The position numbers and the translations under genes are program-made. This document shows, in pieces, positions 26,205-29,220 of a DNA stretch of 33,359 nt. The stretch is taken from the NCBI GenBank assembly GCA_016866775.1, contig VGLJ01000054.1:1-33359 (forward strand), given 5' to 3'. This stretch comes from Candidatus Rokuibacteriota bacterium (GTDB lineage Bacteria > Methylomirabilota > Methylomirabilia > Rokubacteriales > CSP1-6). Below the pieces are notes generated by a model. The model saw nothing but the letters and a program-made list of their open reading frames with translations, was not told where the DNA came from and made no database searches. Each line of letters begins with the position of its first letter. The first letter of the stretch is position 1.

Positions 26205-27944
26205 ATGATTCGCTCCCGCCTCAGCGTCACCAAGACCACGCCGCTCGCCACGCGCGGGCTCGTCGCCGCCGAGCATCCGGCCGGCGCCGACATCGGTGCC
26301 GCGATCCTCGAGCGCGGCGGCAACGCCGTCGACGCGGCCGTCGCCACCGCGTTCGCCATGCCGGTGGTCGAGCCGTTCATGAGCACGATCGCGGGTGCCG
26401 GCACGATGCTCATCCACGTGGCCAAGCGGGGCGAGACGGTGTGCCTCGACTTCAACCCCAACGCGCCGATGGCCGCGCACGCGTCCATCTACAAGCTCAT
26501 CGGCGGCATCGCGACGTACGCGCTCTTCGCGTGGCCGCGCGTCGAGGACGACGCCAACGTGTACGGCTATCGCTCGGTCGCCGTGCCGGGCTCCGTCGCG
26601 GGGCTCGCGCTGGCGCTCGAGCGCTACGGCACGATGAGCCTGAAGGACGTGGTCGCGCCCGCGGTGAAGCTGGCGCGCGAGGGGTTCATCGCCGACTGGT
26701 ACCAGGCGCTCAGCACCGCGAAGTACCTCGAGGAGCTGTCGGCCTTTCCCGAGACCGCGCGCATCCACCTGCGCAACGGGCGCTCGGTCTACCGGCCGCC
26801 GTCGATGGAGCCGGGCGATCGCGTCACGAACCCCGACCTCGCGGCGAGCATGGAGCTGATCGGCCGCGAGGGGCCCGACGCGTTCTACCGCGGCGCGATC
26901 GCGCAGGCCATCCACAACGACATGGCCGCGAACGGCGGGTGGCTCACGAAGGACGACCTCGCTGCCTACCAGGTGCGCGTCGTCGAGCCGCTGCGCGGGC
27001 GCTATCGCGATCTCGACCTCGCGTTCTCGCCGGGCGCGACGGGCGGGACCACCGCGCTCGAGATCCTGAACATCCTCGAGCAGTTCGCGCCGTCCGCGTG
27101 CGGATACACCACCGCGGCCGGGCTGCACGTCCGCGCGGAGGCCGTGCGGCGCGCGTTCGCCGACCGCTTCGCGCACATCGGCGACCCGGCGGTCGTGGGC
27201 GACGCGTTTCGATCCTTGACCACGAAGGAGCACGCGCGGTCCGTCGCCCGCGACGTGAAGCGTGGAGGGGCAGAGGGGGCGGCGCCGCGGGGTGTGCGGC
27301 CGACATCCGCAGGCTCTGCGAGGACAGGAGGCCGCACACCCCGCGGCGCCGCCCCCTCTGCCCCGTCAGACTCCACGACGCGCGCCTCGGACTGCACCAC
27401 GCACATCTCCGTCGTCGATAAGAACAGGAACATGGTCTCGCTCACGCACACCGCCGTGTCGCTGTGGGGCGCCCGCGTCGTCGTCCCCGGAACCGGGATC
27501 CTCCTCAACAACGGAATGATTTGGTTTGATCCCGAGCCCGGGAAGCCGAACTCGATCGCGCCCGGGAAGCGCGGCATGGTCAATATGGTGCCCGTCCTCG
27601 GGTTCAAGAAGGGGAAGCCGTACCTCGCGCTCGGGGCGCCGGGTGGGCGGAAGATCATCGCGGCGATCCCTCAAGTCATCGCGAACCTCGTCGATGCCAA
27701 GGGCTCCCTGCAGGCGGCGATCGACGCGCCGCGGCTCCACCACGAGGGCAACGGGCTGGAGATCGACGATCGCGTGGGCGAGAAGGTGATGCAGGCGCTC
27801 GCGCAGCGCGGCCACACGGTCGCGCGCAAGACGGAGACGTACGCGTCGCTGAACTTCGCGCGGCCCGTCGGCGTGCGGATCACGGCGAAAGGTCTCGAAG
27901 CGGGCCTGGACTCGTTCGGCGCGGCCGCGGCCGCCGGGCACTAG
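26205..27944 (+). CDS. Gamma-glutamyltransferase family protein carrying a palindromic insert
   Basis: A 579-residue Ntn hydrolase precursor. The large subunit begins VAAEHPAGADIGAAILERGGNAVDAAVATAFAMPVVEP and contains GYRSVAVPGSVAGL. The self-cleavage site is DCTTHISVVD, with catalytic Thr398 becoming the small-subunit N-terminus. GILLNNGMIWFDP and GAPGGRKI, expected in the small subunit, follow. It would move or hydrolyse gamma-glutamyl groups, or act on cephalosporin-like or oxamic substrates as some relatives do. No signal peptide is visible, so it is probably cytoplasmic. Residues about 355-387, just before the cleavage site, are translated from a 35-bp inverted repeat and are low in complexity (Gly, Ala, Pro, Arg). 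This linker lies where large-subunit ends tolerate variation. The gene is 7 bases after the lipoprotein. Confidence 0.95.
   Translation: MIRSRLSVTKTTPLATRGLVAAEHPAGADIGAAILERGGNAVDAAVATAFAMPVVEPFMSTIAGAGTMLIHVAKRGETVCLDFNPNAPMAAHASIYKLIGGIATYALFAWPRVEDDANVYGYRSVAVPGSVAGLALALERYGTMSLKDVVAPAVKLAREGFIADWYQALSTAKYLEELSAFPETARIHLRNGRSVYRPPSMEPGDRVTNPDLAASMELIGREGPDAFYRGAIAQAIHNDMAANGGWLTKDDLAAYQVRVVEPLRGRYRDLDLAFSPGATGGTTALEILNILEQFAPSACGYTTAAGLHVRAEAVRRAFADRFAHIGDPAVVGDAFRSLTTKEHARSVARDVKRGGAEGAAPRGVRPTSAGSARTGGRTPRGAAPSAPSDSTTRASDCTTHISVVDKNRNMVSLTHTAVSLWGARVVVPGTGILLNNGMIWFDPEPGKPNSIAPGKRGMVNMVPVLGFKKGKPYLALGAPGGRKIIAAIPQVIANLVDAKGSLQAAIDAPRLHHEGNGLEIDDRVGEKVMQALAQRGHTVARKTETYASLNFARPVGVRITAKGLEAGLDSFGAAAAAGH
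27267..27364. repeat. 35-bp perfect inverted repeat inserted in the gamma-glutamyltransferase gene
   Basis: Arms at 27267-27301 and 27330-27364 are perfect reverse complements, 35 bases each, separated by a 28-base loop. Within the loop CGCAG (27308-27312) and CTGCG (27316-27320) pair again. Outside, CGTGGAG (27261-27267) and CTCCACG (27371-27377) also match after a small bulge, giving a 117-base unit, a multiple of three. The element leaves the reading frame open. It recalls palindromic elements such as the RPEs of Rickettsia, which insert in frame into genes. No other copy was noticed in this window. Confidence 0.9.
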
Positions 27945-27967
27945 TCCCGGAGACCAGGGAGGACACG

Positions 27968-28216
27968 ATGCCCCTCGAAGAGAAAGTCATCGCGAGCTGG
28001 AAGTACAAGAAGGGCGCGCTCGATCAGAAGACCGCGTGCCTCTGTTATCTCGTCGCCAACTTGACGGCCGGCAACACCCACTGAGCGCCGCGCGACCTGG
28101 CAGGTGCCAGGGCGGCGGGCGCGACCGAGGACGAGGTGCGGGAAGCGATCAGCTTCGCCATCCGCGCGAACGCGGCGAAGACGCACGCGGACATCCTGAA
28201 AGTCTGGAAAGAGTAA
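27968..28216 (+). CDS. Probable selenoprotein, AhpD/carboxymuconolactone decarboxylase-like, in-frame TGA at codon 39
   Basis: Reading through one in-frame TGA (28082-28084) gives an 82-residue protein. The frame continues as ordinary family sequence after it: before it KKGALDQKTACLCYLVANLTAG, after it AGARAAGATEDEVREAISFAIR. In the AhpD/CMD fold the catalytic motif is C-x2-C-x3-H followed by a stretch ending AGAT; by that alignment the TGA falls on the second Cys, while the first Cys is Asn36 and the His is Asp43. A hairpin with loop AGGT starts 11 bases after the TGA (see SECIS entry). A strong ribosome binding site, AGGGAGGA, precedes the ATG, and the next gene starts immediately after the TAA. 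Alternatively this is a TGC or TGT to TGA nonsense mutation. Bacterial AhpD-like selenoproteins are known. Confidence 0.65.
28082..28117 (+). promoter_or_regulatory. SECIS-like hairpin directly after the in-frame TGA
   Basis: After TGA come 11 bases, then CCTGGC (28096-28101), loop AGGT (28102-28105) and GCCAGG (28106-28111), a perfect 6-bp stem. Below it CGCCGC (28086-28091) pairs with GCGGCG (28112-28117), with a 4-base bulge on the 5' side. The apical loop starts 17 bases after the TGA, as in the E. coli fdhF SECIS, whose loop begins with AGGU. It would bind SelB and recode UGA as selenocysteine. Confidence 0.6.
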
Positions 28217-28528
28217 ATGGCGGAGGTCTCTCTGACGGCGGCCTTCTCCACGATCCCGGGTGACGACGCCGAGGCGATCAAGCGCCTGCTCACCGAGATC
28301 GTGGAGCAGCTCGCGCGCGAGGACGGCGGCTTCTCGCGGGCCAAGCTCGTCTTCACCGAGTCGAACGAGCGGTGCGGGCTCACGGCCGAGCTCGACGGGA
28401 TCAAGCGCGAAGGCGTGCCGCTCGCGATCGAGCTCGATCAGCTCGAGGACGCGCAAACGGCCGCGGGCGCGCGGGCACAGCTCAAGGAGGCGATCCGCCT
28501 CTACTTCCGGAAGGTCCAGGGCAAGTGA
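28217..28528 (+). CDS. Small hypothetical protein following the probable selenoprotein
   Basis: A 103-residue soluble protein that I cannot assign. Its ATG follows the TAA of the probable selenoprotein with no gap, and GGAAAGAG just upstream is a usable ribosome binding site. It is predicted mixed alpha/beta: AEVSLTAAFSTIPGDDAEAIKRLLTEIVEQLAREDGGFSRAKLVF, then TESNERCGLTAELDGIKREGVPLAIELDQLEDAQTA and a C-terminal helix ending in LYFRKVQGK. One cysteine (Cys53) is present. The stop overlaps the methyltransferase start (GTGA). The position suggests joint expression with the selenoprotein, but no functional link can be shown. Confidence 0.8.
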   Translation: MAEVSLTAAFSTIPGDDAEAIKRLLTEIVEQLAREDGGFSRAKLVFTESNERCGLTAELDGIKREGVPLAIELDQLEDAQTAAGARAQLKEAIRLYFRKVQGK

Positions 28529-29220
28529 CCGACGTGCCGCTGCTCCTCTTCACCTGGCGCGGCTCCGTCTTCCGCGTCGCCGACGGCGTGCAGCCGCCGA
28601 AGGCCGGATCGCTCTTCTTCTGCCGCCACCTGACCGTGCGCCCGGGCGAGCGGGTGCTCGAGATCGGCGCCGGGCTCGGCCTCGCCGCCGTGCTCGCGGC
28701 GCGCGCGGGCGCGATCGTGACCGCGACCGACGTGATCCCCGCGGCGGTCGAGTCGATCCGCGCGAACGCGCTCTTGAACGGCGTCGCCGTCGACGCGCGG
28801 CTCGGCGATGCGTGGGCGCCGGTCGCGGGCGAGCGCTTCCACGTGGTGTGCACGAATCCGCCGCAGATGCCGACGCCGCCGGGGCGCGACCGCGACGACG
28901 CGGAGGCCGCCGCCGACAACGGCGGCCCTGACGGGTGGGCGCTGCTCGACCGGGTCATCGAGGGCGCACCCGAGCATCTCGAGCGCGGCGGACGGCTGAT
29001 CTTCAGCATCTTCGAGTTCCTCGGGCTCAAGAACGCGCACGAGAAGCTGGAGGCGGTCGGGCTCGCGCCGCGCGTCGTCGCGCGCGAGACGCAGAGCTTT
29101 CCGCGCATCGGGTACGAGCGGCTCGATCATCTGCGCGCGATCGATCGCGAAGCCTCGCTGCCGGCGCACGGGCTGCCGCGGACGGTCGAGCGCTACATCA
29201 TCGAGGGCGCGCGCGCGTGA
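28525..29220 (+). CDS. Class I methyltransferase with an NPP motif (HemK/MTS-like)
   Basis: A 231-residue SAM-dependent methyltransferase. Motif I is VLEIGAGLGLAAVLAA (about 44-59), an acidic residue follows in TATDV (about 66-70), and motif IV is CTNPPQMP (Asn111-Pro112-Pro113-Gln114). NPP(Y/Q) is the hallmark of enzymes that methylate planar amide or amino nitrogens, such as PrmC/HemK on release factors or RsmC on rRNA. The C-terminal part (LDRVIEGAPEHLERGGRLIFSIFEFLG) completes the fold. The exact target is not clear. The GTG at 28525 overlaps the previous stop, and its own stop overlaps the deacetylase start. Confidence 0.9.
   Translation: MTDVPLLLFTWRGSVFRVADGVQPPKAGSLFFCRHLTVRPGERVLEIGAGLGLAAVLAARAGAIVTATDVIPAAVESIRANALLNGVAVDARLGDAWAPVAGERFHVVCTNPPQMPTPPGRDRDDAEAAADNGGPDGWALLDRVIEGAPEHLERGGRLIFSIFEFLGLKNAHEKLEAVGLAPRVVARETQSFPRIGYERLDHLRAIDREASLPAHGLPRTVERYIIEGARA

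Follow-up and report, generated by a model that had tools for sequence, protein, structure and literature searches.

According to a review table of prokaryotic selenoproteins, the stand-alone families with the AhpD/CMD fold all carry selenocysteine (Sec) in a CxxU motif (PMC13188914). The GSU3128 family (NF041047, 'distant AhpD homolog') has this motif and comprises stand-alone proteins of ~80 aa with Sec at the second site. An AhpD-like Sec domain, again with CxxU, is also found in NF041537 (arsenite methyltransferase/AhpD) and in MduS (NF045649), where it is fused to a methyltransferase (PMC13188914). M. tuberculosis AhpD (1gu9) has a two-helix active-site hairpin with a CxxC motif and a relay formed by Glu118 and His137. 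In TTHA0727 of Thermus thermophilus (2cwq), the first Cys is replaced (SxxC), and the protein is taken to be without peroxidase activity (PMC3141380).

The candidate gene described here belongs to a 5.1-Mb genome of the candidate phylum Rokubacteria and lies on contig C54, which constitutes the window, i.e., the whole stretch of 33,359 nucleotides that was analysed (Table 1). Its product is of a known kind, an AhpD/CMD selenoprotein; what is new is the predicted NxxU variant. In particular, Asn occupies the site of the first Cys and Asp that of the relay His, both invariantly, in contrast to the CxxU of the tabulated AhpD/CMD selenoproteins. The protein resembles the GSU3128 family in its size, its stand-alone nature, the position of Sec and a nearly full-length alignment; however, it has Asn for the first Cys, and three orthologues score 37.8-49.5 bits against a family cut-off of 110. 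NF041537 and MduS give 40.9 and 37.7 bits, respectively, but differ in being CxxU-containing methyltransferase fusions. None of the NCBIfam selenoprotein models scores above its cut-off for any protein scanned, including members of the CxxU paralogue family described below. With TTHA0727 the protein shares the CMD fold and an active site reduced to one residue, at the second position, with the first Cys replaced, whereas it has Sec where TTHA0727 has Cys, and the two are only ~25% identical. It also shares the two-helix hairpin of M. tuberculosis AhpD, with Sec39 where Cys133 sits; AhpD is larger, and neither its CxxC motif nor its relay is kept. No earlier description of an NxxU protein was found in the literature compared, Haft and Tolstoy (2025) and the groundwater MAG survey of Deng et al. 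lying outside this comparison.

Table 1. Features of the candidate selenoprotein locus (positions in the window)
Feature	Position	Strand	Remarks
Gamma-glutamyltransferase (GGT) gene	26205..27944	+	upstream neighbour in ~half of related loci
Ribosome-binding-like sequence and spacer	27957..27967	+	GGGAGGACACG then ATG; inferred from sequence
Candidate selenoprotein gene, AhpD/CMD fold	27968..28216	+	82 codons, predicted Sec at codon 39, then TAA
Cys26 codon	28043..28045	+	Cys invariant among orthologues
Asn36 codon, site of first CxxC cysteine	28073..28075	+	AAC, invariant
TGA as predicted selenocysteine, site of second CxxC cysteine	28082..28084	+	TGA in 33/33; Sec machinery in genome
Asp43 codon, site of AhpD relay histidine	28094..28096	+	invariant
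SECIS-like hairpin, CCTGGC / AGGT / GCCAGG	28096..28111	+	stem same in 33/33, synonymous positions too; fold
103-aa gene, conserved neighbour	28217..28528	+	beside selenoprotein gene in nearly all loci

The same phylum also contains a paralogous CxxU family of AhpD-like selenoproteins, here called family B (L063-L078, L080, L081), which shows 34-42% identity to the NxxU protein, has TGA at the same place followed by a downstream hairpin (GCTTCGCGGCnGCGAAGC), and likewise lacks the relay His. Unlike the NxxU protein, family B has retained the first Cys (GCTSU); its C-terminus is longer, its hairpin sequence is another one, and it occurs in other families of the class as well. Its members carry GCTSU, GCYTU and variants of these motifs together with a strongly conserved hairpin, CGCTTCGCGGCnGCGAAGC. 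A further AhpD-like frame, L079:500-772 (G038:C330), contains two in-frame TGA codons and would encode a UxxU form (AGULPUSKNRF), with a hairpin-like sequence, GCTTCGCAGTTGCGAAGC, downstream. Moreover, the genome of the window has two more AhpD/CMD-like frames with TGA at CxxU, namely L011 (G000:C18:2318-2488; NCFDU) and L012 (G000:C11:15518-15643; GCRYU).

Conservation of the interrupted frame and its surroundings

As read in the sequence, the gene is an 82-codon ATG frame that ends with TAA at 28214-28216 and has the TGA of codon 39 as its sole interruption. With every stop honoured, the open reading frame is 38 aa long, the length at which an earlier note on this DNA had expected gene callers to cut it. 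The read-through product would be MPLEEKVIASWKYKKGALDQKTACLCYLVANLTAGNTHUAPRDLAGARAAGATEDEVREAISFAIRANAAKTHADILKVWKE. A ribosome-binding-like GGGAGGAC precedes the start, and the ATG of the next gene (28217) directly follows the TAA, in keeping with the tight spacing to which the earlier note had drawn attention. Its claim that family sequence continues beyond a TGA at the second-Cys site also holds; the Pfam match to PF02627 (CMD; residues 13-75, E 6.5e-9, 36.1 bits, gathering cut-off 23) extends across the TGA. The AlphaFold2 model (pLDDT 92.7) has helices at residues 20-33, 40-49, and 54-81. It resembles RclX (7y4r; Z 10.6, 65 residues, 1.5 A), 3bey (Z 10.0), TTHA0727 (Z 7.9), and M. tuberculosis AhpD (Z 6.2), and Foldseek too matches it to CMD/AhpD structures; because helical bundles reach middling Z scores by chance, as the aligner warns, the CMD/AhpD assignment is carried by the sequence evidence. 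The product is probably a small three-helix CMD-fold subunit, oligomeric like its relatives.

The family to which the genome belongs (candidate phylum Rokubacteria, Methylomirabilota) is represented by 57 genomes, 40 of which have an orthologue. In a profile search of 95 genomes of the phylum, the 40 carriers represent 22 of 24 genera of one family, with none beyond that family. The contig scan for relatives, which reaches close relatives, returned Rokubacteria only among the matches listed, and no match appeared in the single genome searched beyond the phylum (around G095). A search of 99 relatives yielded orthologues that are 81-90% identical, each with a single in-frame TGA. One genome (G034) has, besides a complete orthologue, the N-terminal fragment of a second copy cut by the contig end (G034:C346:7043-7150). 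Codon 39 is TGA in all 33 distinct orthologous sequences and in none of them TGG, TGC, or TGT; the motif conserved around it is GNTH-U-A-x-R-D-L-A-G-A-R.

These data bear on the possibility that the frame is a decaying pseudogene of an AhpD-like gene or has suffered a nonsense mutation. Such decay would account for the loss of the active-site Cys and His and for a stop-free frame of just 38 aa; however, 40 genomes from 22 genera have TGA and no other codon at this site, and protein-type constraint persists past it, with N36 and D43 invariant. Averaged over sequence pairs, the differences at the first, second, and third codon positions are 0.056, 0.101, and 0.347 before the TGA and 0.073, 0.058, and 0.346 after the hairpin. 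The excess of third-position differences is thus equal on both sides, which indicates that selection acts on the protein encoded downstream. A pseudogene is refuted by this conservation and is improbable in the extreme.

In most loci, the gene order is helicase, 160-aa gene, (GGT), selenoprotein gene, 103-aa gene, methyltransferase, YdjC, and ROK kinase. The 103-aa gene starts 14 nt ahead of the selenoprotein stop in many orthologous loci, which suggests that the two genes are translationally coupled; such coupling would require passage through the UGA. The immediate vicinity of the 103-aa gene and its 14-nt overlap with the end of the read-through frame in many relatives might also fit a regulated stop, in which translation would yield the 38-residue peptide, while the sequence from the hairpin onward would act only as leader of the 103-aa gene. 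However, the 43 codons past the TGA show conservation at the amino acid level, and what they encode completes the CMD fold; moreover, genomes without the selenoprotein retain the 103-aa gene without such a leader; a regulated stop is accordingly given very little weight.

The 103-aa protein belongs to no Pfam or NCBIfam family, has an invariant ERC motif, and yields a model that is weakly HPF/RaiA-like (TM ~0.5 or less). Within the phylum, the genomes searched contain it in this order only. An exclusive functional link between the two neighbours, considered on the basis of co-occurrence, was rejected because the 103-aa gene is also present where the selenoprotein is not. Genomes that lack the selenoprotein were examined for a Cys homologue or remnant: in four loci of genus g8 with GGT upstream (L091, L093, L094, L102), the GGT stop closely precedes the 103-aa gene, and no remnant is seen between the two. 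The GGT gene of the window itself harbours, in frame, a palindromic element at 27236-27395 (66-nt arms, 85% complementary, 28-nt spacer), of which ~15 more full or partial copies occur across the genome.

The SECIS-like hairpin and the selenocysteine machinery

The hairpin is found in the sequence with the dimensions given in the earlier note: a 6-bp stem (CCTGGC, 28096-28101; GCCAGG, 28106-28111) that begins 11 nt after the TGA and an AGGT loop (28102-28105) that begins 17 nt after it. These distances and the G-rich loop match the bacterial SECIS pattern. The stem is the same in 33 of 33 sequences, although their pairwise nucleotide identity drops to 77%. In particular, the codons that never vary at invariant large-box residues, those of Leu44 (CTG), Ala47 (GCC), and Arg48 (AGG), all lie in the stem; many-fold codons are invariant at three of three such sites in the stem versus none of 28 elsewhere (Fisher p = 2e-4, uncorrected for relatedness). 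Arg48 is encoded by AGG in every one of the 33 sequences, and AGG makes up ~5% of the Arg codons outside the hairpin in the gene. The loop codons are mostly GCA and GGT, both rare elsewhere in the gene, and the loop ends vary jointly (AGGT in 23 sequences, GGGC in seven, AGGC in one, and GGGG in one; n=32). The comparison of homologues that the earlier note had proposed thus gave TGA always, Cys never, and a stem invariant even at synonymous sites.

RNAalifold found no covariation support and no compensatory pair change in the 33 sequences, none being countable because the stem never varies, and an Rfam scan of the whole window gave nothing at gathering thresholds. The folding energy is -27.4 kcal/mol, with z = -3.4 when 41 nt are considered; since z rises to +0.5 in a wider, GC-rich window of 81 nt, the energy was rejected as a proof. 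By itself, it is weak evidence, and it is conservation that lifts the hairpin above chance. The hairpin appears to be under selection as RNA and is predicted to be of the bacterial SECIS type.

The machinery for Sec insertion, for which the earlier note had suggested a search, is present in the same genome, with all components above their cut-offs: tRNA-Sec (70 bits, cut-off 47), selB (380.8 bits), and selA (592.3 bits) are located within 5 kb on C43, and selD (335.5 bits), which has an in-frame TGA of its own, is on C31. Among the 40 carriers, tRNA-Sec is above the cut-off in 35 and selB in two more; neither is in the remaining three (G021, G031, G032), which might be explained by a missing contig because selA, selB, and tRNA-Sec share one contig in the genome of the window. 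Neither of the signs of a simple nonsense mutation that the earlier note had named, i.e., a genome without Sec machinery or Cys homologues with decayed copies and no hairpin, was encountered.

Genes neighbouring the candidate also end in TGA (28526-28528, 29218-29220), so UGA is not generally reassigned. Alternatively, near-cognate read-through could place a different amino acid, Trp or Cys, at this codon; however, Sec machinery is present, a hairpin with a G-rich loop stands at the bacterial SECIS distance, and the TGA occupies the catalytic-Cys position, at which no orthologue has TGG, TGC, or TGT. Near-cognate decoding is thus highly improbable, and the gene almost certainly encodes a selenoprotein, as predicted from its sequence and that of its relatives.

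Active site and possible chemistry of the NxxU protein

In an alignment with AhpD, Sec39 corresponds to Cys133, Asn36 to Cys130, His38 to His132, Asp43 to His137, and position 24 to Glu118. N36, T37, H38, R42, and D43 are invariant among orthologues, whereas position 24 is C, F, S, Y, or A. The protein therefore lacks what characterizes the AhpD peroxidases: the first Cys is Asn in all orthologues, and the relay Glu (24) and His (43) are gone. The substitutions by Asn and Asp, which the earlier note had seen in a single sequence, are conserved across the family. The 'lone selenocysteine' that it had proposed is correct for the motif (NxxU) but not for the protein, since Cys26, on the helix before Sec39, is invariant as well (18 of 18 aligned orthologues and each of the 32 sequences that are complete in the codon table). 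Cys26 is missing from the CxxU paralogue family. In the predicted structure, Sec39 is placed at a helix start; Cys26 is two residues from the relay-Glu position, and helix geometry may direct its side chain away from Sec39.

In the proposed mechanism, the UGA at codon 39 would be decoded by SelB and tRNA-Sec, aided by the hairpin downstream. Sec39 would then act as a 1-Sec peroxidase or oxidoreductase, a function conceivable without the relay because Sec is acidic enough to ionise unaided. Once oxidised, the selenium would be returned to its reduced state by an external thiol or protein or, alternatively, by Cys26 in the same or an adjacent subunit. Provided that the protein is a selenoprotein, a 1-Sec oxidoreductase reduced in either of these ways is slightly favoured. 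The peroxidase reading is weakened by TTHA0727, which has Ser for the first Cys and is taken to lack this activity (PMC3141380), and the neighbouring GGT, methyltransferase, YdjC, and ROK kinase genes give no pointer to peroxide defence.

It is also possible, if rather less likely, that the selenoprotein is neither a peroxidase nor a thiol oxidoreductase and that Sec39 serves as a general acid/base, a nucleophile, or a metal or metalloid ligand in a CMD-like small-molecule reaction. Such a role would be consistent with an active site that has lost its partner Cys and its relay, with the precedent of TTHA0727, with the absence of an antioxidant gene among the adjacent genes, and with the best family matches, which include the AhpD domains of selenoproteins of the arsenite-methyltransferase type (NF041537, NF045649). 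On the other hand, known selenoproteins with redox-type folds are mostly thought to be redox enzymes (PMC13188914), and the locus hints at no substrate.

Taken as a whole, the explanation centred on a selenoprotein with 1-Sec chemistry is held with high confidence, mainly as regards its selenoprotein part. It is somewhat more guardedly proposed, as the probable reading, that the protein represents an unlisted AhpD/CMD selenoprotein subfamily that has lost the partner Cys and the entire proton relay and uses Sec together with invariant Asn, His, and Asp, perhaps with Cys26 as a relocated resolving Cys. If this is true, the subfamily would show an active-site design new to the CMD/AhpD fold. The protein offers a natural experiment on whether Sec by itself can stand in for CxxC and a proton relay, and direct comparison is possible with the CxxU relatives of the same phylum and with the UxxU form. 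Automated annotation likely misses or truncates such genes, and none of the NCBIfam models attained its cut-off in this case; thus, databases probably either lack this widespread selenoprotein, which belongs to a lineage common in soil and groundwater, or contain it truncated to 38 residues.
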